Shown in pieces: positions 26,163 to 46,634 of a stretch of 64,000 nucleotides of DNA (position 1 is the first letter of the stretch; every line of letters begins with the position of its first letter). Below the pieces are notes generated by a model. It was not told the origin of the DNA, did not search any database, and saw nothing but the letters and a program-made list of their open reading frames with translations. Source of the DNA: Lachnospiraceae bacterium (GTDB taxonomy: Bacteria; Bacillota; Clostridia; Lachnospirales; Lachnospiraceae); the NCBI GenBank assembly GCA_910575005.1, contig CAJTCL010000001.1:124001-188000 (forward strand), in the 5' to 3' direction. The position numbers and the translations under genes were made by a program.

Positions 26163-26360
26163 CATACTTTTCCTCCTGACATACTTTCGTTTTGGTTGAT
26201 TCAACCCATTATTCCCTTATATACTTTTTCAGACGTACAGAATTGTACCAGATAAAAAGAAATAAAAAAGACATGATTAGCTGAATTGTCGGCTGATCGT
26301 GTCCCTGTTCTGTTTATTTTTGTTTTGGGCAGCCAACTCTTCACGAATAAGTATGGCATA

Positions 26361-26362
26361 TC
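26361..26362 (-). other. Attachment-site core (GA), high-coordinate end of the nested element
   Basis: The minus strand reads AACAGGGAAG-GA-TATGCCATAC. The part before GA is virD4; the part after is the element. With the end at 11029-11030 it defines the element precisely. Confidence 0.8.
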
Positions 26363-28042
26363 CTTCCCTGTTTTCTGGTAATTTAGTCCATAGGAGCGGC
26401 TCTGCCCACGGGTATCTGACGTATTATACAGATCAATGGTTTCCTTCCCTAAAGTTTCAGAAATCTCCTTTAAGGTAGAGCCTTCCTTGCCGCCAAGGAA
26501 TAACATAGTGTCGCAGTTGCCTAAAATTGTCTCGGCTGCATCTTTATAGATGGTTTTCAACTGACTCTGCGACTGTAAAATGATGGATGCCGATATTTCT
26601 CGGCTTCGTATCGTTGCAATTAGTTTATCGAACTTCGGAATCTGCCCGATATTGCTGAACTCGTCTAACAATAGCCTTACATGGTAGGGAAGCTTGCCCC
26701 CATGCTCATCATCTGCCTTGTCGCATAGAAGATTAAACAGTTGGGTATACATGATTGCCACAAGGAAATTAAAGGTATCATCCGTGTCGGAGATAATGAT
26801 AAACATTGCTGTGCGCTGGTCTCCAATCATGTCCAATTCCATTTCATCGTAAGAAGTTAGTTCCCGTAATTCTGCGATGTCAAACGGTGCTAACCTAGCT
26901 CCACAGCTAATTAAGATCGATTTTGAAGTTTTGTCCGCCGCAAGCTTGAACTTCTTATATTGCCGCACTGCAAAGTGTTCTGGCTTCTCCTGTTCCAATT
27001 CTTCAAACAATTCGTCTACGGCATTTTTAAATTCTTCATCATCCTCCCTTGTCTCTGAAGCATTGATAAATTCCAGTAACGTAGAGAAATTCTGTTCTTC
27101 CTCTGGTGCTTCATAATAGATATAGCCAATCAATGCACAGTATAAAAGCCGTTCTGCTTTCGTCCAGAAATCCTCGGAAGATTTTTCTCCTTCCCCTTTC
27201 GTATTTGCGATAATGGTATTCACCAACTTTAAAATATCTTTCTCTGAGCGGATATAGCAGAACGGATTGTAATGCATACTTTTATTGAAATTGATAGTAT
27301 TTAAAACCTTGATCTTATATGGTTCATAAACCACTTTTCCGTCCTTATCTCGCACTGTCTTCCCATCTTTTATTTTCGGTGTACCACGCCTTAACATCTC
27401 CCCGCACTCAACTAGTATAGTACCTTTCGGATCAGTGACGCAGTAGCTGACACCCGGCGTCATCTGCATAAGCTGCGGCTTTACATAGAACCTCGTCTTG
27501 CCCGAACCAGAGCCACCGATGACAATGACATTCTTATTTCTGGCATATTTAGGCTGCTTCGGTCTACTGTTCATAGTAAGACGTTCTGTTTGTGTTAAAA
27601 GGATATTATTCTCAAATATCGGGTCTATGTACGGGGCAATATCTTTCGCTGTCCCCCATCTTGCAGAACCATACTCCACTCCCTGGCGGTACTTCTTTGC
27701 ATTTTTGCCTTTCAGATACACCATGAGCTTTACAGCCGCAGCTCCAACTACTCCAACCAGTATATCAATCCCATGAATGCTTGGCAGCGGCTTCTGAAAC
27801 GCTAGTTGAAAATTTAGAAACAATATACCTGCTTTATTGATCAGGGAATCCCCCATGCAATGGCGATACAGCCATGCCACTTTATCTATCAGGTAAAATA
27901 CAATCATATAAGGAATATTCAGCATCAGCAGACGTTTCACATCTACAGAAGGCATTTTCTCTCGAATTATGTTTTTTAATTTTCTAAAAAATAGCACAGA
28001 TTTTTTCTTTGAGGCAGATTTCTTTTTCTGTTTCCCACTCAA
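26363..28042 (-). pseudogene. VirD4/TraG-type coupling protein, N-terminal part interrupted by the nested element
   Basis: This is the coupling protein that brings the relaxase-DNA complex to the secretion channel. N-terminal membrane segments lie at about residues 38-55 and 88-110. Walker A is GGSGSGKTRF near residue 180 and Walker B is LLLDEFSNIGQIPKFD near 460, followed by SIILQSQSQLKTIY. After YQKTGK (about residue 560) the frame runs into the inserted element and adds an unrelated tail ending KVYKGIMG, stopping at 26201. The true C-terminus is at 10743-11030. As assembled the gene is broken, so transfer would need excision of the insert or another copy. Confidence 0.9.
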
Positions 28043-28765: not shown

Positions 28766-31700
28766 TCAGTCCTCCTTTCTTTTTCTGCAGAATGTAAAAA
28801 TGGAAACTCCAACACCACATACTGAAATCCCAGCTAAGGCAAACCATAACCAGAACGATCTGTCGTCTCCTGTTTTTGGCGTTCTTTGAAATGGTGGTTC
28901 TAAAGGCTTCTTCTCATCTCTCATTACAACCGTTTGGATTTCCTTGGTATTTTTAACTTCAAACTTTACATCCTCCGCTACCAGATAGCCATCTGGAGCA
29001 CTTTCTTCATGTAATGTATAAGTTCCAATTGGCAACATTTCAATATAATGTGGCTTATGCTCAGAAGTCCAACTTTCCACCACTTTTCCATCTTTATTAA
29101 GAATAGAAAGTTTTGCGCCAGGCAGTTCTTTCCCAGCAATGTCTGTCTTAGAAATCTTTACCTTTGTCACATCATCTTTCATTGATACTTTCTGGATTTC
29201 CCTAGTGTTTTTAACTTCAAACTTCACATCTTCTGCTATCAGGTAGCCACTAGGAGCACTTTCTTCATGTAATGTATAGGTTCCAATCGGCAACATTTCA
29301 ATATAATGTGGCTTATGTTCAGAAGTCCAACTTTCCAATACTTTTCCATCTTTATTAAGGATAGAAAGTTTTGCGCCAGGCAGTTCTTTTCCAGCAATAT
29401 CTGTCTTAGAAATCTTTACCTTTGTCACATCATCCTTCATTGATACTTTCTGAATTTTCCCAGTGTCTTTGACTTCAAACTTCACATCCTCCGCTACCAG
29501 ATAGCCATCTGGAGCACTTTCCTCATGTAATGTATAGGTTCCAATCGGCAGCATTTCTATATAGTGTGGCTTATGTTCAGAAGTCCAGCTTTCTACTACT
29601 TTTCCCTCTTTATCCAAGATAGAAAGTTTCGCGCCAGGTAATTCTTTTCCAGCAATGTCTGTCTTAGAAATCTTTACCTTTGTTACATCATCCTTCATGG
29701 ATACTTTCTGGATTTTCCCAGTGTCTTTGACTTCAAACTTCACATCCTCTGCTATCAGGTAGCCACTAGGAGCACTTTCCTCATGTAATGTATAGGTTCC
29801 AATCGGCAGCATTTCTATATAGTGTGGCTTGTTTTCAGAAATCCAGCTTTCCACTACCTTTCCCTCTTTATCCAAGATAGAAAGTTTCGCGCCAGGTAAT
29901 TCTTTTCCAGCAATGTCTGTCTTAGAAATCTTTACCTTTGTTACATCATCCTTCATTGAAATTTTCTGCACTTCGCCTGTATTCTCCACGGTAAATATAA
30001 TACTTTTTGCAGTCACATAGCCTTCTGCCGGCTGTGTCTCAGTCATAGTATAGTTCTTGCCAACGGTTAATTTTTTGATGATATGTGGCTCCTTACCAGA
30101 CATCCATGTATCTACGAGATTGCCCGCGTCATCTGTTACTTGTAATTTGGCGCCTTCTACCTCCTTGCTATCTGTAAGTGATAGTTTGGTAAACTCAAAC
30201 ACAGTAGGGACATTTTCAAAGACAAATTCATAGGAAATGATTTCTTTTTCGGCATCCTCATACGTGAACTCAAATTCCTGCACCTCTCCCTCACTGGTAA
30301 ATCCCTGAGCTGGAGCAGTTTCTTTTACATAATAGGAAAATCCGATTGGGAGGTCAGCCACAAATGTCAGTTTCCCATCTTTATCTGTGACTTTTTCTTC
30401 AATTACTGTATCTGCTTCCATGAGAACTTCACCTTTGTTATTAGTAATATCCTCTTTTGTACATAGGGCGAATGTCGTTCCTTCCACTACACGATCAGAA
30501 TTCTTTTCTGTTTTTAATACGTGAATCTCTGCTTTCTGCCGGTTATTTTGCCAGTCCGTGGAAAAAGTGACAATGGCTGTATCCTGATCACGGTAGGTTA
30601 AATCAATTTCCCGAATTTCTCCATCCAAAACATAACCTTCTGCCGTCTTCTTCTCCTGAATATAATATTTCCCAAGAGGCAGATTCTCCAGTTTTGCAAT
30701 CCCAGTATCATCTGTGGTAATGGTGTTCACCAATTCATCCTTCTTATAATAATCATCACTCTCTCCATCTGCTGCCTTTATGTCCTCTAAAGCATATACT
30801 TCAAAGGTAACATCTTTCAGTGCTCCAGTGACATATGCAAACAGATGGGAAATCCATCCGCCAATGCTGTCAAGTAACGATACATCCTCCAGAAATTCTC
30901 CCTTTTTGTTAATTAGGATTTTGCCTGTTGGTACATCGTCTTTCATTTCCACTTTTTGGATTTCGGCTGTGTCTTCCACAGTAAATGTGATTTCCTCTGC
31001 TTTCAAATACCCATAAGGCGCTAATTCCTCCCGCAGTGTATAGGTTTCCCCTACGGTCAGCCGCTCTATGATATGTTCTTCTCCTTGCACGGATTTCCAT
31101 GTGTCTATGAGGTTCCCATCTTTATCAAAAATGGTCAATGTTGCACCTGAAAGCTCCACACCTGTTGTAAGGTCCGTCTTTTTAATGGAAACCGTAGTCG
31201 GCTCATTTTTAAATTCAGAAGTATATGCAGCTATTTTTATATCTTGTCCTTGGTATGTGGTGGATATATCTATGGTTTCATTGGAAGATACATATCCTGC
31301 CGGTGCTTTCTGTTCTTTGATGTAATATGCTCCAAAAGGTAAATCCAATCCAAAAACTGCCTTGCCTTCTTCCCCTGTTACAGTTTCCTCAAGCAGCGTA
31401 TTTGCTTTTACAATCACTTTCCCATGTGCCAAAATGTCTGTTTTTGCATACAGTCCGAAGACTGCACCCGCTACCACAGTGCCATTCTTTGCATCTTTCT
31501 TGATTACTGCAAGCTCTATTTTCTGGCGGTCATTTTCAAATATGGCTGTCTGCTCAACGATTGGTGTATTCTGGTCTGCATAGGCAAGCGTAATAGTCTG
31601 AGGCTCTTCATTCCGTACAAATCCCTTTGGAGCCTTTGTTTCTTTCACCTGGTAGGTACCAAGTGGGAGGTTTGCTATGGATGCTTTTCCTTCTTTATCT

Positions 31701-34700
31701 GTCACCAGCGTTTTCACCAATGTACCAGAAGCATATTCCAGAATCCGGTTTCCTTTTCCATCCTTCTGGAAATCTGCGGTATAAATATCCTCCGCTGCGT
31801 AGACCTTAAATTCTGCACCCTCCAAATTTTCAGTCTCATACCGGAAATTTTTATCATTATACTGCTTCAATATTTCTCCTTTTTTCACGATATGCAACTT
31901 GCCTTTTACGGGATGGTTTTCATACACAACATTGATAATCACATCCCCTGATACATCGTCGATTTGGTATAGTGTATCAGAATCCACAGATACTTTATAA
32001 TAATTCTTATTCAATGTATAACCGAATGGGGCATTGACTTCCTCAATACGGTAATGCCCAATTTTTAAATTTTGTGGTAGGACTAGATAACCTTGCTTAT
32101 CTGTAAAATAAGATTTATGTGTCACCACAGTTGGATAAGTAGTTACTTGCTCCACATATTTCTTATGGTCTAGGTCATATACCTTAAATTCTGTATTTTT
32201 TGCAAGTACAGGCTTTTTCGTTTCATCATCCTGTTTCACAATTTTTAACTTCGCCTCAAATTCATGATCCAAAAGCACCCGCCAGACTTGTGGCGTATTC
32301 GGCTTATTTTCTGTGATGTGCACAAGAAAATCCTTTACAGGTTTATAGTTATGAGGTGTGGTTGTTTCTCTTACAATGTACGTTCCAAACGGAAGTGGGA
32401 TCGTACAAGCATAACCTTTTTTATCGGTGAAAATTTCCGTTGCACCATTCTCCCCAATTACGACAGGTTCCGCAGAATCAAAATCATATCCCCCATCCTT
32501 CTTCTGTTTTAGAGAAGATACCAGATAAGCACGAAATCCTGCACCGGAAAGAAGGTCTGCATCGGTGTTCCCATTGTCTATTGCCTTGATAATCTGGAAT
32601 GGCTGTTTCTTCACTTGCTCTAGAGAAGTGCAGTCACGTTCTATCGTAGCCACCAAATCATTCTCATAATTACAAACCAAATCATACTCTGATTTATCTA
32701 CCAGATAACCCGAAGGCGGCGTAATCTCTTTTACAAAATACTCCCCAAGATATAAGTCAGTAATTTCTGCTTTCCCTTTTTTGTCTGTGGTCAATGTCCC
32801 TACTTGTTCTCCAGCTTTATAGAGCACCTTCGTCTTTTCATAAGGATGTAGAATGTCTTTCCTTGCATACAGCCCATAAACAGCATGTTCTAGTGTGGCA
32901 TCCCCTTGTGGGTGATTTTTTTTGGTTTCTTTATCTTTCTTTTGCAGACAGATCTTGGCAGTGACACGCTCATTGACGAAGGTATGTGAAAATGTTACCT
33001 TTGCTTCTTGATCATTGGTATAACTGAACTGAAAAGAATATACATCCTTTGTATTCCGCAAATAACCCTTTGGAGCTTTGATTTCTTTTACCTCATACCA
33101 AAATCCGATTGGAAGGTCTACGGAAAATGCGGCTTTCCCATTTTCCTCTGTTGTTACTTTCTCAAGCAGTGTACCTTTGGGTACGACAACACGGTCATCT
33201 GCATTGGTGATATTTTCAGAAGCATACAGACCAAAAATGCCACCTGATAAACCATTCTTTGTATCCTTATCTTTCTTTACTACACGGACAACTGCTTTTT
33301 GTCTATCATTTAAAAATGTAGTATTAGAAAAAGCAGCTTCCTCCGTCTGTCCAGCATAAGTGATTGTTACATTTTTGCTTTCCTTTTTATTATAGAAATT
33401 CTTAGGGGCTTGTTCTTCGGTAACTCGATATGTACCAAGATGTAGATTTTTGAGTGTTACAGAGCCATCTTTCCCAGTTTTAAGGTTTTCTGCCACCAAT
33501 TCTCCAGCTTTATAAACTACTGAACCATAAGGTGTGGTAATATCTTTTGCCGCATAGACATTAAAAACAGCACCCTTTTGTTTACGTTTCTCATACTGGA
33601 ATACTACACCATTTTTATTGGAATCTGCACTTGTTAGAACTTTTCCTTCTTTGTAAATAGTCAAGTTTCCAAGCTGCTCTACATCTGGAACAGTGGTGGA
33701 TACTGTCTGCCCGTATTTTAGGGTAACATGGTAGGCAGTTGCATTGTAGCAGTACCCTGACGGAGCTGTAATTTCCTTTAGATATATAGTGTCTTGTGTT
33801 TTCATAATTTCTATGCTGGAAACACCCTTGTCATCCGTTGCCGGCATCCGTGCGATAAGCTGTGTACACTCTTTATCCTTATAGAGTCCAAATACTGCAC
33901 CTTCCAGTTTTACATTTTCTTTTTTTGCATCCACTTTCACTACTTTTATCTTTGCATTTTGCACCCAACTTACGGAAAAATCCACATATTTTTCATCTGT
34001 GACACCTTCCCCAAACACAAGTGCCAAATCCTGACTGCCTTCCCCAGTTGAAATTTTATAGGCAGAGTAGTCTTTTGTAATCTTACCTTTCATTCTGGAT
34101 GACCATGAGCTAGACACATCGTTCGCTTGGGAAAGAGGCGCGGAAAGGTAAAACTTTGTTCCCCCGGCGACTTCAACCTCTGCCCCAGCATTACTTGTCT
34201 CGCCTGTCGTTACATTGTGAAATTTTACACCGTCTGGCAATTTCATCGTGACCATCTGAAGTTCATCTGCCTGGAACGTGATTTCCTTTGTCCTCTGGAT
34301 ATTTCCATCTATATAAGCCTCTACGTTATCATCTGAAAATTCCATTTCAACATCTGGGATCTCTGGTTGTCCTATACAATAATTGTAAAGCTCCATTGCA
34401 AGTGTTGTCCCAGTTTCATTGGCTCCTGAAAATGCATCGCTGCTCCCGTTTGCATGACTGGCTGCCATATGGACAAGAATAAAACGCTGTCCCGCTGAAA
34501 AGTCAGGGTATTTTTCTGCAAAGAATCCCTCCTCGCCGCTGGCTTTTGTGCCATAATAACAGACTTTTGCAAGTGCTTTTTTGTCTTTCAGCTTGGAAAT
34601 ACTATAATCACCACTCTCAGGCGAATCAACAGAAGGTTGTATGCAGTAGGCAGTTGCTGAAATATCGCCAAATTTAACCGTATATTTATAAGTCAGATAG

Positions 34701-35434
34701 CTGCCATATCCATAGTCAGCATAGCGATAACAATCCCCTTTCGTTACTGTTACCTGTTCCATGCTCCTTTCCCCTGCTGATGCATAGAAGGTAACACTTT
34801 CTCCTGCTTCCATTGCCATCAGATCAATGCCTTGTTCCACAGCCTGCTGGATGGCTCCGTCTGCGGTCAACCCCGTTTCCTCATCAGCCCCATTTTCCTT
34901 TGGGATGGCTACTGAATCATCTACTACTTTTGTAGATTCTTGGTTTTGTCCTTCCTTTCCAGATTCTTTCTCCGTTTTCTGTGCAACAATAATATCTCTT
35001 ATGATATGGTAAGATGGATTTTTGCTAATTGGTTCTACAAAATAAACTGCTTTGTAAGTCCCTGCCTTTCCAATGTCAAACTTTTCTCCGTCTTTCCCCT
35101 TTGCCTCATAGAATGTGATCTTTACTTTATCGGAAGAAAACTCTATGCCAGAGAAATCATGCGCAACGTCAAAGTTGCTGTTAATTTCCACTGTATGATC
35201 TTCTACAGTTACGATTTCATTCTGATCTAATCCCGCTTTCACCTTCTCCAAAGCTGGATACTCCGCTTCATAAGTTGCCGGCTCTGGTTCTGCCGCGTAA
35301 GTTCCCATCGGTTGTAAAAAGGCTGCTAAGACTGTGACCGCCGACAGCAGAACTGATACCATCTTCTTTACGTTTCTTTTCAATCTAAGTTGTCCCTCTC
35401 TTTCTTTGCTGCGCAGCTTACTAACTGCTGTCAT
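28766..35434 (-). CDS. Giant LPXTG-type surface protein with a thioester domain and many Cna-B/SpaA repeats
   Basis: A 2222-residue secreted wall protein. A long signal peptide (KKMVSVLLSAVTVLAAFLQ) ends near TYAAEP. A thioester domain lies at about residues 230-390, with TAYCIQPSVDSPESG giving the Cys and RFILVHMAASHAN near its Gln region. About seventeen Cna-B/SpaA-type beta domains follow (repeated K-GAxFxVY and LGxYxVKExxAPxGY), which normally form Lys-Asn isopeptide bonds. The C-terminus is RTPKTGDD, a hydrophobic stretch, and RKRKED, a sortase signal with TPKTG in place of LPXTG. Such proteins give covalent adhesion to host or partner cells. In an ICE it may promote mating contact or gut attachment. 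No sortase is in the window. Confidence 0.92.
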   Translation of the reverse strand: MTAVSKLRSKEREGQLRLKRNVKKMVSVLLSAVTVLAAFLQPMGTYAAEPEPATYEAEYPALEKVKAGLDQNEIVTVEDHTVEINSNFDVAHDFSGIEFSSDKVKITFYEAKGKDGEKFDIGKAGTYKAVYFVEPISKNPSYHIIRDIIVAQKTEKESGKEGQNQESTKVVDDSVAIPKENGADEETGLTADGAIQQAVEQGIDLMAMEAGESVTFYASAGERSMEQVTVTKGDCYRYADYGYGSYLTYKYTVKFGDISATAYCIQPSVDSPESGDYSISKLKDKKALAKVCYYGTKASGEEGFFAEKYPDFSAGQRFILVHMAASHANGSSDAFSGANETGTTLAMELYNYCIGQPEIPDVEMEFSDDNVEAYIDGNIQRTKEITFQADELQMVTMKLPDGVKFHNVTTGETSNAGAEVEVAGGTKFYLSAPLSQANDVSSSWSSRMKGKITKDYSAYKISTGEGSQDLALVFGEGVTDEKYVDFSVSWVQNAKIKVVKVDAKKENVKLEGAVFGLYKDKECTQLIARMPATDDKGVSSIEIMKTQDTIYLKEITAPSGYCYNATAYHVTLKYGQTVSTTVPDVEQLGNLTIYKEGKVLTSADSNKNGVVFQYEKRKQKGAVFNVYAAKDITTPYGSVVYKAGELVAENLKTGKDGSVTLKNLHLGTYRVTEEQAPKNFYNKKESKNVTITYAGQTEEAAFSNTTFLNDRQKAVVRVVKKDKDTKNGLSGGIFGLYASENITNADDRVVVPKGTLLEKVTTEENGKAAFSVDLPIGFWYEVKEIKAPKGYLRNTKDVYSFQFSYTNDQEAKVTFSHTFVNERVTAKICLQKKDKETKKNHPQGDATLEHAVYGLYARKDILHPYEKTKVLYKAGEQVGTLTTDKKGKAEITDLYLGEYFVKEITPPSGYLVDKSEYDLVCNYENDLVATIERDCTSLEQVKKQPFQIIKAIDNGNTDADLLSGAGFRAYLVSSLKQKKDGGYDFDSAEPVVIGENGATEIFTDKKGYACTIPLPFGTYIVRETTTPHNYKPVKDFLVHITENKPNTPQVWRVLLDHEFEAKLKIVKQDDETKKPVLAKNTEFKVYDLDHKKYVEQVTTYPTVVTHKSYFTDKQGYLVLPQNLKIGHYRIEEVNAPFGYTLNKNYYKVSVDSDTLYQIDDVSGDVIINVVYENHPVKGKLHIVKKGEILKQYNDKNFRYETENLEGAEFKVYAAEDIYTADFQKDGKGNRILEYASGTLVKTLVTDKEGKASIANLPLGTYQVKETKAPKGFVRNEEPQTITLAYADQNTPIVEQTAIFENDRQKIELAVIKKDAKNGTVVAGAVFGLYAKTDILAHGKVIVKANTLLEETVTGEEGKAVFGLDLPFGAYYIKEQKAPAGYVSSNETIDISTTYQGQDIKIAAYTSEFKNEPTTVSIKKTDLTTGVELSGATLTIFDKDGNLIDTWKSVQGEEHIIERLTVGETYTLREELAPYGYLKAEEITFTVEDTAEIQKVEMKDDVPTGKILINKKGEFLEDVSLLDSIGGWISHLFAYVTGALKDVTFEVYALEDIKAADGESDDYYKKDELVNTITTDDTGIAKLENLPLGKYYIQEKKTAEGYVLDGEIREIDLTYRDQDTAIVTFSTDWQNNRQKAEIHVLKTEKNSDRVVEGTTFALCTKEDITNNKGEVLMEADTVIEEKVTDKDGKLTFVADLPIGFSYYVKETAPAQGFTSEGEVQEFEFTYEDAEKEIISYEFVFENVPTVFEFTKLSLTDSKEVEGAKLQVTDDAGNLVDTWMSGKEPHIIKKLTVGKNYTMTETQPAEGYVTAKSIIFTVENTGEVQKISMKDDVTKVKISKTDIAGKELPGAKLSILDKEGKVVESWISENKPHYIEMLPIGTYTLHEESAPSGYLIAEDVKFEVKDTGKIQKVSMKDDVTKVKISKTDIAGKELPGAKLSILDKEGKVVESWTSEHKPHYIEMLPIGTYTLHEESAPDGYLVAEDVKFEVKDTGKIQKVSMKDDVTKVKISKTDIAGKELPGAKLSILNKDGKVLESWTSEHKPHYIEMLPIGTYTLHEESAPSGYLIAEDVKFEVKNTREIQKVSMKDDVTKVKISKTDIAGKELPGAKLSILNKDGKVVESWTSEHKPHYIEMLPIGTYTLHEESAPDGYLVAEDVKFEVKNTKEIQTVVMRDEKKPLEPPFQRTPKTGDDRSFWLWFALAGISVCGVGVSIFTFCRKRKED
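28916..29947 (-). repeat. Four near-identical 258-bp tandem repeats in the surface protein gene
   Basis: Four consecutive 86-residue units (each with DVTKVKISKTDIAGKELPGA and HYIEMLPIGTYTLHEESAP) differ at only a few positions. Examples are SGYLI versus DGYLV, LDKEGK versus LNKDGK and SEHK versus SENK. The similarity at the DNA level points to recent tandem duplication, and copy number may vary between strains. Confidence 0.88.
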
Positions 35435-36024: not shown

Positions 36025-36057
36025 GGATATTCCAAATGCATTTTCATTGGAATATCC
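36025..36057. terminator. Hairpin ending the first small module
   Basis: GGATATTCCA and TGGAATATCC form a perfect 10-base stem just past the stop of the small HTH gene. Hairpins of the same GGxxxTTCC type recur at 36725, 37529 and, degraded, near 38796. Confidence 0.65.
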
Positions 36058-36068
36058 TTGATTTATCT

Positions 36069-36269
36069 TTATTCTTTTTGATATATAGCAATTTCATGTA
36101 ATTCACAATCTAATATTTCACATAATGTATTCAAAGTATGGGTAGATACATTTGCATTTTTCCTTAAACGTGATAATTGTCCCGCTGAAACTTTGTATGT
36201 ATTTATTAACTGATATTGTGAAACATTTTTCTTGTCGAGTGTGTTCCATAAAGGTTCATAAGAAATCAT
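36069..36269 (-). CDS. Small XRE-type HTH regulator, module 1
   Basis: A 66-residue single-domain helix-turn-helix protein: VSQYQLINTYKVSAGQLSRL, then NTLCEILDCELHEIAIY. This form is typical of Cro/CI-type minimal repressors. It is divergent from the 111-residue gene at 36370 across a promoter with a perfect palindrome, which it probably binds. It is nearly identical to the gene at 36763-36969, so the module was duplicated recently. Confidence 0.82.
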   Translation of the reverse strand: MISYEPLWNTLDKKNVSQYQLINTYKVSAGQLSRLRKNANVSTHTLNTLCEILDCELHEIAIYQKE

Positions 36270-36290
36270 GTTATTCAGTCCCTTCTATAC

Positions 36291-36342
36291 TTGAATAATA
36301 CCCGAAAATGGACTATAATAACATTAGCCATAAATGGCTAAT
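36291..36342 (+). promoter_or_regulatory. Promoter and palindromic operator of module 1
   Basis: TTGAAT (36291-36296) and TATAAT (36314-36319) are 17 bases apart, a near-ideal sigma-A promoter. The perfect palindrome ATTAGCCATAAATGGCTAAT (36323-36342) overlaps the expected start of transcription, so a bound repressor would block the plus-strand gene. Confidence 0.8.
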
Positions 36343-36369
36343 ATCAAGAGGAAAGGTAGATGGATTTCT

Positions 36370-36705
36370 ATGGAAAAAGGAAAGATGAAAGGTTTATTGT
36401 TGGAAATTCTAAAAAAGCAGGATACAGTTTTTTCTGATGTGTCATGGCATCATGCATTAGACACATTGACTGTTACTACTATCGACAAACAAAAGTTCAT
36501 GATTGGCATTGACTATCTGAATAATGGTGAGGATATTATAAGGCTATGGCATAGATCAAACCCGTTTTCCCTATATATAGAAATTGCTTTGCTTGAAATG
36601 CTTGATTTGGAGATCATTACAGAGGAGGAATACAAAAAATATCAAGCTGAAACTATTAAGAATGCTAATATAATCAATAAACGGCATAGGAAATCAGTAG
36701 TATAA
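36370..36705 (+). CDS. Unknown small protein, module 1 partner
   Basis: A 111-residue protein with no family I recognise. It reads KMKGLLLEILKKQDTVFSDV, then LTVTTIDKQKFMIGIDYLNN, IIRLWHRSNPFSLYIEIALLEML and an acidic helical tail. Two paralogues follow in the window (37068-37409, 38239-38592); all share the pattern LLxxLFEML, TTIDKxxFxI, xxYLxENE, W-x3-NP, IEMALxxLxDLxII. Predicted to be a soluble alpha/beta protein. Start chosen at 36370 because paralogues begin there; the ribosome site is weak. Expressed from the regulated promoter facing the HTH gene. Could be a toxin, an inhibitor of a host process, or an ICE regulator; nothing in the sequence decides. Confidence 0.68.
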   Translation: MEKGKMKGLLLEILKKQDTVFSDVSWHHALDTLTVTTIDKQKFMIGIDYLNNGEDIIRLWHRSNPFSLYIEIALLEMLDLEIITEEEYKKYQAETIKNANIINKRHRKSVV

Positions 36706-36724
36706 TGGATTTATCTGTATAAAA

Positions 36725-36757
36725 GGGATGTTCCAACACTCTTTATTGGAATATCCC
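36725..36757. terminator. Hairpin between modules 1 and 2
   Basis: GGGATGTTCCA and TGGAATATCCC pair over 11 bases with one G-T, between the convergent ends of the module 1 partner and the module 2 HTH gene, so it can serve both. Confidence 0.68.
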
Positions 36758-36762
36758 TTGAC

Positions 36763-36969
36763 TTATCTCTGTTCTTTTTGGTATCTAGCAATTTCATGTA
36801 GTTCACAATCTAATATTTCACATAATGTATTCAACGTATGGGTAGATACATTTGCATTTTTTCTTAAACGTGATAATTGTCCTGCTGAAACTTTATATTT
36901 ATTTATTAACTGATATTGTGAAACGTTCTTCCTGTCCAGCGTATTCCATAAGGGTTCATAAGAAATCAT
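36763..36969 (-). CDS. Small XRE-type HTH regulator, module 2
   Basis: A 68-residue protein almost identical to the module 1 regulator (NKYKVSAGQLSRL against NTYKVSAGQLSRL). Its operator palindrome is identical to that of module 1, so the two repressors probably cross-regulate. It is divergent from the 113-residue gene at 37068. Confidence 0.82.
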   Translation of the reverse strand: MISYEPLWNTLDRKNVSQYQLINKYKVSAGQLSRLRKNANVSTHTLNTLCEILDCELHEIARYQKEQR

Positions 36970-36990
36970 GTTATTCAGTCCTTTCTATAC

Positions 36991-37042
36991 TTGAATGATA
37001 CCCGAAAATGGACTATAATAGTATTAGCCATAAATGGCTAAT
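36991..37042 (+). promoter_or_regulatory. Promoter and palindromic operator of module 2
   Basis: TTGAAT (36991-36996), 17-base gap, TATAAT (37014-37019), then the same perfect palindrome ATTAGCCATAAATGGCTAAT at 37023-37042 as in module 1. Only one or two bases differ from module 1 over this stretch. Confidence 0.82.
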
Positions 37043-37067
37043 ACTATTGACGATTGGAGTGTATGTA

Positions 37068-37409
37068 ATGGAAAAAGAGGATTTGGTAAATTTTTTGTTT
37101 GAGATAATGAATAAACACACTGCATTGTTTTCAGACATATCATTGAATGATGAAATTGACGCTATATTTGTTAAATCTGTTGATGGAAAAAGATTTATTA
37201 TCACGGTCAATCTTATGACAGAAAATGAAGCATTAATAGAACTATGGGCAAAGAAAAACCCAGAATTAATGTCCCTTGCCTTCAGCGTAATAAATATGAG
37301 GGATCTGGGGATTTTTACGGAAGAAGAAACACATAGTTATTTATCAGAAATTATTGAAAAGGCGGATAATTCTTGTATTGGGGATGTGAAAAACAGGATA
37401 AAACATTAG
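37068..37409 (+). CDS. Unknown small protein, module 2 partner
   Basis: A 113-residue paralogue of the module 1 partner: DLVNFLFEIMNKHTALFSDI, SVDGKRFIITVNLMTENEAL, WAKKNPELMSLAF, then an acidic tail. The Met at 37068 follows TTGGAGTG. The HTH genes and operators of modules 1 and 2 are nearly identical, but the partner proteins are far more different. This suggests the partners are under diversifying pressure while the control unit is kept. Confidence 0.7.
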   Translation: MEKEDLVNFLFEIMNKHTALFSDISLNDEIDAIFVKSVDGKRFIITVNLMTENEALIELWAKKNPELMSLAFSVINMRDLGIFTEEETHSYLSEIIEKADNSCIGDVKNRIKH

Positions 37410-37528
37410 AAATTAGCCATATGGATATTCGGTCGCTTCATCAATAAAATGCCAAATAGCATAATAGGATGTCCTTGGATATAGTATCAAGTAGACCCTA
37501 TTTTCTAGAAATAATTTAGAATAGAAAA

Positions 37529-37563
37529 GGGGTATTCCCATGCTTTTTTAATTGGAATACCCC
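37529..37563. terminator. Hairpin after module 2
   Basis: GGGGTATTCC and GGAATACCCC form a perfect 10-base stem with a T-rich loop, about 120 bases past the stop of the module 2 partner. Confidence 0.7.
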
Positions 37564-37636
37564 CTAAGAATTATTTTATATGATAATATCATATTTTTAA
37601 ATCTGGTATTATCTTGTAATAACTTTATATGACTGG

Positions 37637-37810
37637 TTAGCTGTTATTATCTTCTGTATTATCTAACGCATATTCAATACATTGTATCACAACTTTATTA
37701 AATGACATTTGATTTTCGTTTGCAAGCGTTTGGACTTTATCTATTAAATCTTTTGGCAACCGTAAAGATTTATTTTCATATTCTATGTATTCCTTTTTTA
37801 ATTTAAACAT
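37637..37810 (-). CDS. Small ribbon-helix-helix regulator, module 3 (partner gene lost)
   Basis: A 57-residue protein starting MFKLKKEYIEYENKSLRLP, followed by KDLIDKVQTLANENQMSF and NKVVIQCIEYALDN, a ribbon-helix-helix DNA-binding fold like Arc or antitoxins. It is nearly identical over most of its length to the gene at 37949-38128. Unlike modules 1, 2 and 4, no partner gene lies divergently upstream: after the palindrome at 37874-37909 the next module begins at once. Its partner has apparently been deleted. Confidence 0.78.
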   Translation of the reverse strand: MFKLKKEYIEYENKSLRLPKDLIDKVQTLANENQMSFNKVVIQCIEYALDNTEDNNS

Positions 37811-37873
37811 TTTCTTTCACCTCTTGTTTTTATTGTAATGTAAAACACAATGTGTAAAAATGTTATAAATATA

Positions 37874-37909
37874 TTATAATTTATAATGTTTTTTCATTAT
37901 AAATTATAA
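37874..37909. promoter_or_regulatory. Palindromic operator of module 3
   Basis: TTATAATTTATAATG and CATTATAAATTATAA are perfect 15-base arms around six Ts. It lies 60-100 bases before the small ribbon-helix-helix gene, in the place held by the divergent promoter in module 4. Confidence 0.7.
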
Positions 37910-37948
37910 TTTTAAAGAGAATATGGAACAGCATAACAAATAGGAGAT

Positions 37949-38128
37949 TTAGGAATTAGAAATATTATTCTCTGTATTATCTAATGCATACTCAATACAT
38001 TGTATCACAACTTTATTAAATGACATTTGATTTTCGTTTGCGAGTGTTTGGACTTTATCTATCAAATCTTTTGGTAGCCGTAAAGATTTATTTTCATATT
38101 CTATATATTCCTTTTTTAACTGAAACAT
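37949..38128 (-). CDS. Small ribbon-helix-helix regulator, module 4
   Basis: A 59-residue ribbon-helix-helix protein, differing from the module 3 protein at the third residue (MFQLKK against MFKLKK) and in its last few residues. The DNA repeat spans about 180 bases, including the region just before each ATG. It is divergent from the 117-residue partner at 38239 across an A/T-rich promoter region. Confidence 0.78.
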   Translation of the reverse strand: MFQLKKEYIEYENKSLRLPKDLIDKVQTLANENQMSFNKVVIQCIEYALDNTENNISNS

Positions 38129-38238
38129 ATTCTTTCACCTCACATTACTATTGTAATGTAAAATATGGTATGCTAAAATATTATAAATATATTATGTTTT
38201 ATAATATAATTTATGATACAAAAAGGAGAGGAACTATA

Positions 38239-38592
38239 ATGACAAAAAAAGACTTATTAGATTGGTTATTTGAAATGCTAAATGAACATGATTCACTATT
38301 TTTGGATGTTGGGTTAGATGATACTTTAGATGCATTACTAGTCACTACCATAGATAAAGAAAGATTTATCATTATGGCTGATTATCTGAAAGAAAATGAG
38401 GAAATGATTCGATGCTGGGAAAAGAACAATCCAGTTACTTTAATTATAGAAATGGCTTTAATGATACTTGCAGATTTAGGAATTATTTCAGAAAGACAAC
38501 GTGAAGACTTTCATTCAGAAGTTACAAAATTTACAGATGTTTTACAAGAAACATATAAGCATAAAGGTTTAGAAGAACTGTTACACCTATGA
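38239..38592 (+). CDS. Unknown small protein, module 4 partner
   Basis: A 117-residue paralogue of the module 1 and 2 partners: DLLDWLFEMLNEHDSLFLDV, LVTTIDKERFIIMADYLKEN, WEKNNPVTLIIEMALMIL and a helical tail. It has the best ribosome site of the three (AAAGGAGAG before the ATG at 38239). Its divergent regulator is a ribbon-helix-helix protein instead of an XRE protein, so related partner genes have been combined with unrelated regulators. Confidence 0.72.
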   Translation: MTKKDLLDWLFEMLNEHDSLFLDVGLDDTLDALLVTTIDKERFIIMADYLKENEEMIRCWEKNNPVTLIIEMALMILADLGIISERQREDFHSEVTKFTDVLQETYKHKGLEELLHL

Positions 38593-38647: not shown

Positions 38648-38721
38648 CATTTGGCAAACGCTGTGAGGGTACGTGCTCTGTGTGTGCAAATCCCCCACAG
38701 CTCTGTTGCGCATAACAAATG
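38648..38721. other. GC-richer structured segment after module 4
   Basis: CATTTG (38648-38653) pairs with CAAATG (38716-38721), enclosing GCTGTGAGGG paired with CCCCCACAGC. The segment from 38600 to 38760 is distinctly richer in G and C than its surroundings and holds no gene. It could be a small RNA, a second origin-type site or a replication signal. Confidence 0.45.
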
Positions 38722-38795
38722 CTATGCCTTGTCAATTCTACTGTGGGCGTCTGACTTGTATATTTTGTGAAAAGAATAAACATTCATATAGAATG

Positions 38796-38935
38796 TTCCA
38801 AGAAATATTATATTCTTTAGAACATCCTAATATAGAAATTCGGTCATTTTAGAAGGTATATCCAAGAATAGACCATAATAATATTCAGCGTATATAAGAT
38901 ATACTTATTGAATATTAGTAGTTCAATAAGTATAT
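38796..38935. promoter_or_regulatory. Orphan hairpin and operator, remnant of another module
   Basis: A degraded GATGTTC-type hairpin near 38796-38826 is followed by ATAGACCATAATAATATT (matching the GGACTATAATAACATT of modules 1 and 2). Then comes a perfect 14-base inverted repeat ATATACTTATTGAA / TTCAATAAGTATAT (38899-38935, nine-base loop). No gene follows on either strand. The order hairpin, promoter, palindrome is that of the intact modules. Confidence 0.55.
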
Positions 38936-41133: not shown

Positions 41134-42312
41134 CTATCCGCTCCCATACAAGTCATGGTTCACTTCTGCGGCATAATAGTTTCTTATGGTCATCGGGGCA
41201 TTATACAGTGTTGTCAGAAGATATGCCTTGATATTTCCCACTTTGGTTGTCTTCAAACCAAGACATCTAAGAACATATGCTATATGTTCATGGCTCAGCT
41301 TCATAAACTGACTCTTAATAATTGCCACTGGCTTTTCTACACCAGCAATCCGCAATATACCACTGTCTGGCATCATCATAACCTCCACCATCAGCTCCAC
41401 CAGTTCATCTATGTCTTCTCTAGGGTAATAACATTCATCCAGAAAACAATCATAAGAAATCTGCTCTTGAATCATAGTTCTGTATGCATCCATCTTATCC
41501 ATCATATCTGGTACTGTAGCAGGAATGGATGGATAAGATAGGATTTGATTAGGATAGATAGGAATGGATACATCAGATTTAGTATTGTTAAGATCTGTCT
41601 TATTATTCTCTGTTTCATGAAATTCAGTATCACTTAAATCAGTATTATTAATATCAGTCTTATTAATATTAGTATTATTAGATTGTGATTTTGAACATTC
41701 TTGAATTGTGATTTTCACTATTCCTGAATTGTGATTTTCACTATTCTTGAATTGTGATTCTGGAAGTTCTTGAATGGTGGTTTTCATTATTCCTGGATTA
41801 TAATTTTCACTATTCTTCAATTGTGATTCTGGAAGTTCTTGAATGGTGGTTTTCACTATTCTTGAATTGTGATTTTCACTATTCTGTGTGTTTACTGGCA
41901 TTTCTTCTGGTGTTTCTTCTTTTTCCTGCCCATCATCATCTGTTTGTTGTATCATAAAATTTTTCACATAGATCACATTCGGCTTACCAAGCCCCAAACG
42001 TTTCTTTTCCACTAAACCAATCCCTTTTACTGTATCTAACTCCTTCAGCAGTTTCACCGCTTTTTGTGTACCACAATTCATAAGCTCTGCAATCTCTTCC
42101 ACCTTAAAAATAATATACACCCGATCCTCTTCATCAAACCAACGGTTCTTAATGCTAAGGCTCATACGGTCTAATAAAAGACCGTATAACACCTTTGCTT
42201 CACAGGATAAGGATTTAAAGTATTCTGCAGTAAAGAGCAGCTTAGGAATCCGATAAAATGTGTACTGCTCTGCTTCCATACCTCGGTAATAATCAAACTG
42301 TAATTCCTGCAT
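41134..42312 (-). CDS. RepA N-terminal-type replication initiator
   Basis: A 392-residue protein starting with the RepA_N pattern (YTFYRIPKLLFTAEYFKSLS then EAKVLYGLLLDRMSLS, RVYIIFKVEEIAELMNCG). A low-complexity middle (about residues 130-245) follows, with repeated NSENHNS and TIQELPESQ and then Asn/Thr-rich segments. The C-terminal domain has SYDCFLDECYYPREDIDEL. RepA_N initiators start plasmid replication; in ICEs they allow the excised circle to replicate. It overlaps parB by 20 bases, forming a rep-par unit. Confidence 0.86.
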   Translation of the reverse strand: MQELQFDYYRGMEAEQYTFYRIPKLLFTAEYFKSLSCEAKVLYGLLLDRMSLSIKNRWFDEEDRVYIIFKVEEIAELMNCGTQKAVKLLKELDTVKGIGLVEKKRLGLGKPNVIYVKNFMIQQTDDDGQEKEETPEEMPVNTQNSENHNSRIVKTTIQELPESQLKNSENYNPGIMKTTIQELPESQFKNSENHNSGIVKITIQECSKSQSNNTNINKTDINNTDLSDTEFHETENNKTDLNNTKSDVSIPIYPNQILSYPSIPATVPDMMDKMDAYRTMIQEQISYDCFLDECYYPREDIDELVELMVEVMMMPDSGILRIAGVEKPVAIIKSQFMKLSHEHIAYVLRCLGLKTTKVGNIKAYLLTTLYNAPMTIRNYYAAEVNHDLYGSG

Positions 42313-43201
42313 CTTTTGTCCCTCCCTCTTTCTGTTTCCATTCCTCCAAAAGCGTATAAATCACATCCTCAATCTGTTCTTTGGAATATTCCATAGGAAA
42401 ATAATTGCGGATTTTCTTTGCAGAAATCGTCACATTTACAGGTTCCGTCTCTTTTTTGACCAATACCGCATATACGTTTCCTTCGGTCAATTTCCCTGCT
42501 TCACTGTCTTCTTTCAACTGTTCTGCCTGCGTTTTGGAGGGGAATATGCTACTATTGCTGATGGCATCCACAACCCATATCTGTTCTTCTGTTTTCAAAT
42601 AAGATAATTTTTCACCAACTACCATTGGGATTTTATTTTTATCCACATAATCCAACAATTCCGTTACCAATTTTGACAGACGGATATAACGCTGCACGGT
42701 CCTTCCACTGTCACCAGCGGTTTCCCCAATGGCATCTGCAGTATATCTCTCCCCTTTGCTGCCTTGATGCTTCATTGCCTCATATTTCATCTGGTATGCT
42801 TTTGCTTTTTCACTTGGCAAAATATCTTCTCTCTGGATGTTTGTATCAACCATCAGGACTACGGCTGTATCATCATCCATTTCCCGGATAATGACAGGCA
42901 TTTCCTCAAGTCCGGCAAGTTCACATGCCCGCCATCTTCTATGCCCTGCAATAACCTCATAACCACCGTCCAAATGTGACCGCACAATCCCTGGCACCAA
43001 CACTCCATACTGCTTTATGCTTTCCACTGTCTCCTGCATCTTTTCATCATCTAATACCCGAAATGGATGGTCTTTAAACGTATGTAACTGGCTAAGGGGA
43101 ATAGATGTTACTATTTCCCCTGCCGCTGCCTCATCCACACCAAACAAATCATCAAAAGATGTCAGCTTTACTTTCTTTGCACTCTTACTCTTCACCCACA
43201 A
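42293..43201 (-). CDS. parB: ParB/Spo0J-type partition protein
   Basis: A 302-residue ParB. The N-terminal CTPase/nuclease-like domain has IPLSQLHTFKDHPFRV, VPGIVRSHLDGGYEVIAGHRR (with the GHRRWRACE motif), and VDTNIQRED. The helix-turn-helix follows (IGETAGDSGRTVQRYIRLS). It overlaps parA by 17 bases and repA by 20. ParB would bind centromere-like palindromes of the element; the array at 10.4 kb and the inverted repeat at 44055 are candidates. Confidence 0.92.
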   Translation of the reverse strand: MWVKSKSAKKVKLTSFDDLFGVDEAAAGEIVTSIPLSQLHTFKDHPFRVLDDEKMQETVESIKQYGVLVPGIVRSHLDGGYEVIAGHRRWRACELAGLEEMPVIIREMDDDTAVVLMVDTNIQREDILPSEKAKAYQMKYEAMKHQGSKGERYTADAIGETAGDSGRTVQRYIRLSKLVTELLDYVDKNKIPMVVGEKLSYLKTEEQIWVVDAISNSSIFPSKTQAEQLKEDSEAGKLTEGNVYAVLVKKETEPVNVTISAKKIRNYFPMEYSKEQIEDVIYTLLEEWKQKEGGTKDAGITV

Positions 43202-43970
43202 GCACCTCCTGTGTCAGTGATTGATAGCCGTCTGCCACAATTCCCTTTGGGTCATGCAGATAAATGCTTTTCCCCTCTGCTGTGGTTTCCGCAGCCTTTA
43301 TGGACAATGGAATACAATTCTCAAAAATATGTATTTGGTTGCCATATACTTCTCGGATCTGTGTTGAAATGTCTTTTGCAAAGTTTGTTCTGCGGTCTAC
43401 CTTTGTCAGCAGAATCCCCATAATGTCAAGTGTTGGATTCAGTTTTCTATGTACGCGCCCAATTGTCTTGATTAACTGCTGTAATCCCTTGACTGGAAGA
43501 TACGCAGCTTCTACTGGAATCAGTACGTTATCAGCCGCTACAAGGGCATTTATTGTAATCATGCCAAGGGAAGGCATACAATCAATAATCACAAAGTCAT
43601 AGGCTCCTTTTACACTGTTCAGATACTGACGCAATATGGTTTCACGGCTCATAACATTTACCAGAGCTGTTTCCAAGCCTGCTAATTCAATGTTTGCTGG
43701 AATAAAGTCAATCCCTTCCGCATGATGGATAATTCCTTTCCCATGTTCTATATCCTCATCATGGATAACTTTTTCCATGATGGTTACGAGTGTCACATCT
43801 AGCTCGTCTGGTTCTTCGATTCCCAGGCTGACCGCCATACTCCCCTGTGCATCTGCCTCTACCAACAATACTTTTTTACCTGCCCTTGCAAGCCCAATCC
43901 CTAGATTCACACTAGTTGTTGTCTTGCCAACCCCGCCTTTCTGGTTTGCAACTGCAATTGTCCTGCACAT
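43185..43970 (-). CDS. parA: ParA/Soj-type partition ATPase
   Basis: A 261-residue ParA ATPase with the deviant Walker A KGGVGKTTTSVN, Walker A' and B (FVIIDCMPSLGMITINAL) and LTKVDRRTNFAKD near residue 180. It has no N-terminal DNA-binding extension. It positions the replicating circle or keeps the ICE in daughter cells. First gene of parA-parB-repA. Confidence 0.94.
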   Translation of the reverse strand: MCRTIAVANQKGGVGKTTTSVNLGIGLARAGKKVLLVEADAQGSMAVSLGIEEPDELDVTLVTIMEKVIHDEDIEHGKGIIHHAEGIDFIPANIELAGLETALVNVMSRETILRQYLNSVKGAYDFVIIDCMPSLGMITINALVAADNVLIPVEAAYLPVKGLQQLIKTIGRVHRKLNPTLDIMGILLTKVDRRTNFAKDISTQIREVYGNQIHIFENCIPLSIKAAETTAEGKSIYLHDPKGIVADGYQSLTQEVLVGEE

Positions 43971-45134: not shown

Positions 45135-46634
45135 TTACTGGCTTTCTTTACCCAAAGTTTTCATCGTCGGGAACAATAGCACATCTCTTATTGCCGGAGA
45201 ATTTGTCATCATCATCACCATACGATCAATACCATATCCAATCCCACCTGTGGGCGGCATACCAATATTAAGAGCATTGAGGAAATCTTCATCAGTATGA
45301 TTTGCCTCATCATCTCCAGCAGCAAGCAGCGCTTCCTGTGCTTCAAAACGCTCTCTTTGATCAATCGGGTCATTTAATTCAGAATAGGCATTCGCCATTT
45401 CCCAGCCATTCATAAAGAATTCAAAACGCTCCACATACTCTGGATTCTCTGGCTTCTTCTTGGTCAGAGGAGAAATCTCAATTGGATGATCCATCACAAA
45501 AGTTGGCTGAATGAGATGATCTTCTACATATTCCTCAAAAAACAGGTTTAATATATCGCCTTTCTTATGCCTGTCCTCATATTCAATATGATGCTCATCT
45601 GCCAGTTTCTTTGCCTCTTCTGTATTACTGATCTCATTGAAATCTACATTTGCATACTTTTTCACAGCATCTACCATCGTGATACGCTCAAAAGGCTTGG
45701 ATAAATCCATCTGATGTTCTCCATAAGTAAGGATTTCAGAACCTGTAACTTCTTTGGCCACATAGCGGTAGAGATTTTCTGTAAGATCCATCATTCCATA
45801 ATAATCGGTATAAGCCTGATAAAGTTCCATCAAAGTAAATTCTGGATTATGTCTGGTGTCCAGACCTTCATTTCGGAACACGCGTCCAATTTCATAAACA
45901 CGCTCCATGCCTCCCACAATCAATCTCTTCAAATAAAGCTCCAGAGAAATACGAAGCTTCAAATCTTCATTTAAGGCATTAAAATGTGTCTCAAATGGTC
46001 TAGCAGCTGCGCCGCCTGCATTGCTCACCAGCATAGGTGTTTCCACTTCCATAAATCCCTGTCCATCCAGGAAACGACGAATACTGCTTAGTACCTTGGA
46101 ACGTTTGATAAATGTGTCCTTTACCTCGCTGTTCATGATTAAATCCACATAACGTTGACGATATCTGGCATCTGTATCAGTAAGACCATGATATTTTTCC
46201 GGCAAAATCTGAAGACTCTTAGAGAGAAGGATTACTTGCTGGGCATGGATAGACATTTCTCCGGTTTTTGTCTTAAATACTTCTCCCTTAATTCCCAATA
46301 TGTCGCCAACATCATATTTCTTAAAATCCTTATAGCTCTCCTCACCGATATTGTCTCTTGCCACATATGCCTGAATATTCCCCTGTAAATCCTGTACATT
46401 ACAGAAGGAGGCTTTTCCCATCACACGCTTGAACATCATTCTGCCAGCAATACTGACAGTTTGTCCTTCCAGCTCATCAAAATGATCTTTAATTTCCTGG
46501 CTATGTTTTGTCACCTCATATTTGGTGATCTGAAAAGGATCTTTGCCGTTATCCTGCAAATCCTTTAATTTATCATGACGAACCTTTATCAATTGATTTA
46601 AATCCTGTTCTGGTGATTGGTTGTTCTGTGCCAT
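45135..46634 (-). CDS. lysS: Lysyl-tRNA synthetase, class II
   Basis: A 499-residue class II LysRS of normal length. The N-terminal OB-fold holds GQTVSIAGRMMFKRVMGKAS. Motif 2 is IGRVFRNEGLDTRHNPEFT and motif 3 is GIGYGIDRMVMMM. It charges tRNA-Lys in the cytoplasm. It is the third gene of a unit with greA and the unknown gene upstream. Its 3' end borders the ICE; the last codons (KESQ) look complete, so the insertion did not damage it. Confidence 0.97.
   Translation of the reverse strand: MAQNNQSPEQDLNQLIKVRHDKLKDLQDNGKDPFQITKYEVTKHSQEIKDHFDELEGQTVSIAGRMMFKRVMGKASFCNVQDLQGNIQAYVARDNIGEESYKDFKKYDVGDILGIKGEVFKTKTGEMSIHAQQVILLSKSLQILPEKYHGLTDTDARYRQRYVDLIMNSEVKDTFIKRSKVLSSIRRFLDGQGFMEVETPMLVSNAGGAAARPFETHFNALNEDLKLRISLELYLKRLIVGGMERVYEIGRVFRNEGLDTRHNPEFTLMELYQAYTDYYGMMDLTENLYRYVAKEVTGSEILTYGEHQMDLSKPFERITMVDAVKKYANVDFNEISNTEEAKKLADEHHIEYEDRHKKGDILNLFFEEYVEDHLIQPTFVMDHPIEISPLTKKKPENPEYVERFEFFMNGWEMANAYSELNDPIDQRERFEAQEALLAAGDDEANHTDEDFLNALNIGMPPTGGIGYGIDRMVMMMTNSPAIRDVLLFPTMKTLGKESQ

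Follow-up and report, generated by a model that had tools for sequence, protein, structure and literature searches.

A recurrent family of small proteins faces exchangeable putative repressors in Lachnospiraceae

Results

Organization of the cluster

We analysed a cluster of three small genes, called partners here, and four small regulator genes that lies in an integrative and conjugative element (ICE). The window, that is, the whole 64,000-nt stretch of DNA analysed, is part of the 4.29-Mb genome G000 from a Lachnospiraceae genus. A preliminary description of the window had reported three related proteins of 111–117 residues, each facing a small DNA-binding protein, and both the open reading frames (ORFs) and the Pfam matches of the regulators confirm this arrangement. 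The DNA-binding regulators are separate genes, located on the strand opposite to the partners and outside the partner operon.

In module 1, XRE-1, a predicted XRE repressor of 66 aa (minus strand, 36069–36269; HTH_26, PF13443, 49.2 bits at a cut-off of 22), faces the 111-aa partner 1 (plus strand, 36370–36705), which was assigned from ORF, identity and tree data and consists of an N-domain and a C-domain. The predicted promoter of partner 1, TTGAAT-17-TATAAT (plus strand, 36291–36319), matches the consensus at 10 of 12 positions and is followed, after 4 bases, by the candidate operator TTAGCCATAAATGGCTAA (36324–36341, no strand). The arrangement recurs in the aligned module 2, which comprises XRE-2 (68 aa, minus strand, 36763–36969; HTH_26, PF13443 above cut-off), the promoter located by promoter search (plus strand, 36991–37019), TTAGCCATAAATGGCTAA (37024–37041, no strand) and the 113-aa partner 2 (plus strand, 37068–37409). 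XRE-1 and XRE-2 are identical at 63 of 66 residues. The two modules do share near-identical XREs and the same palindrome, as had been described; the palindrome, however, is not quite perfect, having 8-bp arms and an AA/TT centre.

The other two regulators are ribbon-helix-helix (RHH) proteins, predicted repressors that are identical at 54 of 57 residues. The second copy (59 aa, minus strand, 37949–38128; PF03869 Arc, just above cut-off) faces the 117-aa partner 3 (plus strand, 38239–38592) across a promoter with the motif TTGTAATGTA (plus strand, 38151–38160). The first copy (57 aa, minus strand, 37637–37810; PF03869 Arc, 21.3 bits at a cut-off of 20.4) faces the only other occurrence of TTGTAATGTA in the window (plus strand, 37833–37842) and has no partner of its own. 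The near identity of the two RHH proteins agrees with the preliminary description, whereas its third module is reduced to a regulator and a promoter.

The partners form a family with a small N-terminal core

The partners are 32–37% identical to one another, with partners 2 and 3 at 32% and 37% identity to partner 1. They had been assigned to no known family, and profile searches of Pfam, NCBIfam, PHROGs and PADLOC likewise gave no match above cut-off for any of the three; the rows of two alignments (20 and 15), scanned singly, gave only sub-threshold Pfam matches. We rejected weak matches to NNMT, GntF, DpdC, RelB_like_antitoxin and PHROG 11750, which lie below curated cut-offs or, where the library has none, at E ≥0.004. 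The sole antitoxin-like match among the relatives scanned singly is RelB_like_antitoxin (PF25734), in 6 of 20 rows with a best E of 0.024, below cut-off. No helix-turn-helix, RHH or AbrB match above the Pfam cut-off was found in the partners, and none of them matches SymE (PF08845; partners 1 and 2 match 0 Pfam families, partner 3 no SymE). No membrane segments were seen by eye.

The family core is an N-domain of ~53 residues, made up of one helix followed by beta strands and often joined to a helical C-domain. Among loci of the genus we found N+C, which is the window form, C alone, C with N+C behind it, and a fusion of C to N+C. A gene for the N-domain alone (53 aa) is kept together with its XRE in two contigs from a scan of named genome contigs, which yielded 10 loci. 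At L129 the N-domain lies behind another part of a 185-aa ORF. A first profile matched in 12 of 29 genus genomes, and a second matched one of 299 family genomes and one of 295 order genomes, in each case the own genome. With the distant members L103 and L105 added, a profile matched in 10 of 397 family genomes, and the N-domain profile in 19 of 397, own genome included; the weakest of these matches (G293, 3.6e-4) lies inside a 375-aa ORF and is doubtful. The 398 phylum genomes held, besides the own genome, only one weak match inside a 654-aa ORF. No partner relative was found in the viral-contig, phage and plasmid collections, which is a weak negative for such short divergent proteins. Two proposed distant kin were rejected, L034:3178-3606 (hhalign probability 0.3%) and L019. 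The partners belong to an undescribed Lachnospiraceae family that has no entry in the databases searched. At least some of its members are carried on mobile elements.

Divergent regulators accompany the family

We counted regulators at the fetched partner and N-domain loci with at least 450 bp of upstream DNA, merging same-strand neighbours and dropping copies that share the first 120 bases (n = 46; L018, a 90-base remnant, is counted as having a regulator). A small regulator lies on the opposite strand within 700 bp at 39 of the 46 loci and within 250 bp at 35. As a control, the same queries found one at 15 of the 206 other ORFs in this DNA that are 150 aa or longer. Behind the facing regulator, 18 loci have a further regulator of the set, which in L036 and L046 is that of the neighbouring module. 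XRE1, RHH, NMK, KIGQ and seven further regulator types have Pfam HTH_26/HTH_3 or Arc-type matches; for RHH2, EED and XRE_L016 only NCBIfam matches below cut-off were obtained. XRE_EED beside L010, L012 and L021 is on the same strand and downstream, and hence not their regulator. Regulators of two unrelated folds, XRE and RHH, occur across one partner family, and the combination of related partners with unrelated regulators, described for the window, extends beyond it.

Promoter motifs follow the class of regulator. Promoter-like sequences in the whole stretch show no clear excess (26, with a shuffled mean of 21.3 and standard deviation of 5.3); the promoters of the XRE modules count nevertheless because their layout and operator recur. 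Allowing no more than one mismatch, we found the palindrome four times in the 29 genus genomes (two in the window and one each in G009 and G025), always 4–5 bases behind a −10-like box and always adjoining an XRE homologue, with 94–100% identity in the window, 62% in G009 and 56% in G025. In G009 the XRE and palindrome face a 982-aa immunoglobulin (Ig)-like protein and in G025 a short ORF, which makes the XRE and its operator a unit attached to different genes. The Ig-like protein facing this operator cassette is encoded in another species, at L100:2025-4973. At up to two mismatches the palindrome is found at 9 places and a reversed control at 16; as this is no excess, only the set with at most one mismatch carries weight, for which no control of its own is given.

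RHH promoters share TTGTAATRTA in all seven intergenic regions examined, promoters of KIGQ-type regulators share GAATTGTATRGGC (7/7 examined), and a repeated AAGTAG is found in 8 of 11 RHH2 promoters. At L134, from another genus, the palindrome close behind TATAAT is a different one, ATGGTGCGTGTACGCACCAT; the N-domain gene there is faced by an HTH_26 regulator. Since the promoters are partly related by descent, conservation of these motifs alone is no proof of binding. Hairpins of the type GGGATRTTCCAA...TTGGAATATCCC stand at the module ends, GGATATTCCAA...TTGGAATATCC behind XRE-1 (36025–36057, no strand) and GGGATGTTCCAA...TTGGAATATCCC between modules 1 and 2 (36725–36757, no strand). A repeat search in the genus also found the type outside modules. 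We rejected the hairpins as cassette borders: the strict pattern occurs at 20 places in 12 of 29 genomes, only 8 of them at partner loci (one a remnant), and many of the places outside share a longer repeat.

Regulators and partners have been reassorted

The DNA of modules 1 and 2 is ~92% identical through XRE, promoter and palindrome, and directly behind the operator identity drops to about half. XRE-1 and XRE-2 differ by a synonymous distance (dS) of 0.39 and a non-synonymous distance (dN) of 0.02, whereas partners 1 and 2 show a dN of 0.54 with saturated dS; under a joint history at the omega (dN/dS) of partner orthologues, we estimate an expected partner dN of ~0.06–0.11. A tree built from 23 partner rows places partners 1 and 2 in opposite main clades (support 100/100) and partner 3 beside L009 (94/89). 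L009/L034, the nearest relative of partner 3 at 59% identity, has an unrelated XRE facing it. The regulator labels require 11 changes on this tree, where 7 is the minimum possible. Regulators follow partner lineages in part and have occasionally been exchanged. Gene conversion of the regulators would also explain modules 1 and 2, but mixing elsewhere on the tree favours exchange.

Of 11 partner comparisons in which dS could be measured, 10 give an omega of at most 0.29, and these values indicate purifying selection; the comparisons are not all independent, as L007, L008 and L020 were compared among themselves. The stand-alone 53-aa N-domain has an omega of 0.05 at a dS of 1.4. Only the C-domain pair L008/L020 departs from this, with 0.72 over 15 changes; the RHH2 regulators of these two loci have an omega of 0.80 from 11 changes. 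Paralogues in G028 differ by 4 non-synonymous and 0 synonymous changes, and the locus pairs G009/G025 (N+C) and G000/G015 are identical in the compared parts. The low omega values and the sharp junction between modules 1 and 2 rule out fast-diverging partners. The proposal that partners diverge faster than their controls needs correction, and their characterization as diversifying is not supported; the contrast between modules 1 and 2 appears to be mainly the result of reassortment.

N-domain genes of other genera overlap SymE-like genes

Among the 18 genomes other than the own that have an N-domain match, seven (L148–L152, L154, L132/L146) carry a SymE-like gene that lies directly behind the N-domain gene and overlaps it. 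With the ATG nearest the stop taken as the start of the SymE-like frame, the two genes overlap by 19 nt in L148, L149, L150 and L154 and by 13 nt in L132. Coordinates in L151 and L152 equal those in L150, and because these three are near copies the seven overlaps amount to five distinct cases. PF08845 matched above cut-off in all three tested (L148, L150, L132), and the other four were identified with a hidden Markov model (HMM) of those three. An XRE lies within 250 bp in six of the seven loci (L151 and L152 by eye), and in L149 an HTH_26 gene is 634 bp off, beyond another gene. In L132 an XRE pair, the N-domain gene and the SymE-like gene are followed by a DUF6809 protein (L132:1841-2140). 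Searches of a literature set largely without subscription papers found no match for the term DUF6809, for SymE-type toxin-antitoxin systems in Lachnospiraceae or for the module as a whole.

SymE of E. coli inhibits growth on overproduction and is repressed by LexA, the SymR RNA and Lon (PMC1891008). The PF08845 matches in Lachnospiraceae do not fit the nearly exclusive proteobacterial range given for the family in that paper of 2007. Similar N-domain/SymE cassettes stand beside a TnpV-like ORF (by eye) in several genera (L148, L150–L152, L154), which suggests recent transfer.

Surroundings of the cluster

The cluster is bounded by a 2222-aa adhesin-like ORF (28766–35434), in which repeated modules and a sortase-type terminus were seen by eye, and by two sigma-70 region 4 proteins. 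Genes of the ICE in the window encode a TraG-type coupling protein (26201–28042), RepA_N (41134–42312) and a ParA-type ATPase (43185–43970), behind which, following the element, lies a class II tRNA synthetase gene, lysyl-like by eye (45135–46634). In another species, a decayed module with RHH2 (L018) adjoins a similar lysyl-type tRNA synthetase gene. An A-T rich inverted repeat AATATTCA...TGAATATT (38860–38925) stands behind a TAGACCATAATAATATT stretch that by eye resembles an XRE-module promoter; the two are perhaps a relic of a further module. A reverse transcriptase ORF (PF00078; 405–2330) may belong to a group II intron.

Discussion

Comparative analysis of sequences shows that a recurrent repressor-partner family with exchangeable regulators is real. 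It draws attention to a protein domain that lacks annotation, with matches in 19 of the 397 sampled family genomes, and offers a system in which the movement of regulators and their target genes as separate cassettes can be tested. As for function, the best supported reading, though it falls short of even odds, is that these are tandem mobile cassettes working like a toxin-antitoxin (TA) module with a separate, exchangeable repressor, the window representing a variant without SymE. Each cassette would combine an XRE or RHH repressor, small and probably autoregulated, a divergent promoter of the sigma-70 type, in XRE modules with the repressor's operator at about +1, and a partner protein with the N-domain as its constant part. 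The DNA-binding function would have moved from the antitoxin into the repressor which, judging from the layout, would keep the partner silent by sitting on the operator. In the SymE-bearing form the N-domain protein would be made first and be coupled to the SymE-family protein by the overlapping frames, making it the likely antitoxin or modulator; in the window form the N-domain would be fused to the helical C-domain, which would replace the second part. Failure of the repressor, under stress or when the element enters a repressor-free cell, might then trigger a burst of partner. We consider it tentative, and somewhat unlikely, that the N-domain proteins are a new class of antitoxins or modulators for SymE-fold toxins of Lachnospiraceae and make up a type of TA system, with the repressor as an independent, exchangeable cassette and the N+C proteins of the window as derived fused modulator-effectors.

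Several observations weigh against the TA-like reading. Seven of the 46 loci have no regulator (L012, the fragment L026, L032, L141, L147, L155 and L157), a transposase-like ORF being seen by eye upstream of L032, and the regulator count is partly circular since all 14 regulator queries come from partner-adjacent loci. Of 28 XRE homologues, 24 lack the palindrome (22 at ≤52% identity; the remaining two, at 69% identity across 55 residues, contain a stop). Shuffled regulator labels average 14.8 changes on the partner tree and none of 200 shuffles is as low as the 11 found; as the labels are more clustered than in every shuffle, regulator exchange is not free but limited. Evidence for the toxin link comes from other genera, because the three-sequence HMM detected no SymE-like ORF in the window or beside the fetched modules of the own genus. 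Even among the other N-domain genomes, 11 of 18 have no SymE-like gene behind the N-domain gene; by eye, L128, L131, L040 and L042 have no close co-directional gene there, and L130 and L134 have other genes. The roles of toxin and antitoxin could also be reversed, since one assay showed Rv0078B, a SymE-like protein, acting as an antitoxin (PMC6504116).

The preliminary description had guessed at toxin-like, anti-defence or exclusion proteins; the first guess gains from the SymE-overlapping relatives, and the other two are weakened by the searches of viral, phage and plasmid collections, weak negatives though these are. Anti-defence cassettes resembling acr-aca, in which the partner would inhibit a defence of the host or of a rival when the element arrives and the repressor would then silence it, are unlikely in view of those searches, the divergent position of the regulator outside the operon and the purifying selection on the partners; a match to the anti-Thoeris protein Tad1 covers only a helical hairpin at background Z, and a first structure model gave KA1-type folds instead. 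Blocking of a second related element by the partners, with orphan repressors silencing incoming cassettes, would suit genes on a conjugative element and a regulator copy that has outlived its partner (37637–37810). Such superinfection or entry exclusion is nevertheless quite improbable, as several copies adjoin chromosomal genes (guaA-, argG- and lysS-like by eye) and the partners show no membrane segment by eye.

The divergent, CI/Cro-like layout, the match of three XREs to the RstR phage-repressor model, below its cut-off, and the further regulator copies (in two loci the neighbouring module's) would fit a bistable switch, for which the paaR2-paaA2-parE2 locus, bistable and with the CI-like regulator PaaR2 in the operon, is a precedent (PMC8630535). 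The partner would then be a regulator itself, an anti-repressor, anti-activator or RNA-polymerase modulator, that sets expression states of the ICE or host together with the repressor. We regard this as unlikely too: the partners have no DNA-binding domain match, and their pairing with two unrelated regulator folds makes a specific anti-repressor contact improbable. Finally, the regulators could be bystanders, small XRE and RHH genes being common in these genomes and their pairing with partners devoid of functional meaning. XRE1-like genes do face other genes, and both the loci without a regulator and the origin of the queries speak for this, but the excess of facing regulators over the control, mostly within 250 bp, and the class-specific promoter motifs render it very improbable.

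How does the TA-like reading compare with known systems? As Arc-type RHH and HTH_26/HTH_3 repressors, the regulators of the window are ordinary; unusual is their exchange over one partner family. Classical type II TA systems have toxin and antitoxin in one operon and a DNA-binding domain in the antitoxin, whereas here the regulator is a separate gene; behind partners 1 and 2 the only directly following co-directional ORF of at least 45 aa is antisense to XRE-2 (36728–36913), a 59-aa ORF follows partner 3 after 80 bp (38673–38852), and the overlapping two-gene layout is found in the seven other genomes. The omega-epsilon-zeta system is a three-component type II TA with a separate RHH regulator, omega. 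It shares with paaR2-paaA2-parE2 and the present cassettes a DNA-binding regulator encoded apart from the toxin-related genes; here, however, no ParE or zeta match is found and the window form shows no second toxin-like gene, and, as a further point against the reading, the regulators are divergent whereas that of paaR2-paaA2-parE2 is in the operon. In acr-aca loci aca follows acr in one operon, and Aca shuts acr off after entry. The likeness is that orphan proteins of small size go with small regulators drawn from several unrelated types (PMC11065993); the present cassettes differ in the divergent layout and in that no relative was found in the phage, virus and plasmid collections searched.

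A close parallel to the SymE-bearing form is SymE-SymR of E. coli, through the N-domain relatives that overlap a SymE-like gene in seven genomes, confirmed by PF08845 in three, and through the tight repression of E. coli SymE at several levels (PMC1891008). The window partners have no PF08845 match, and in place of LexA an XRE faces the genes. Where E. coli has the antisense RNA SymR, a protein gene here precedes the SymE-like gene. The N-domain gene is a protein-coding candidate partner for SymE-like proteins, of which the E. coli representative is known with an RNA antitoxin (PMC1891008).

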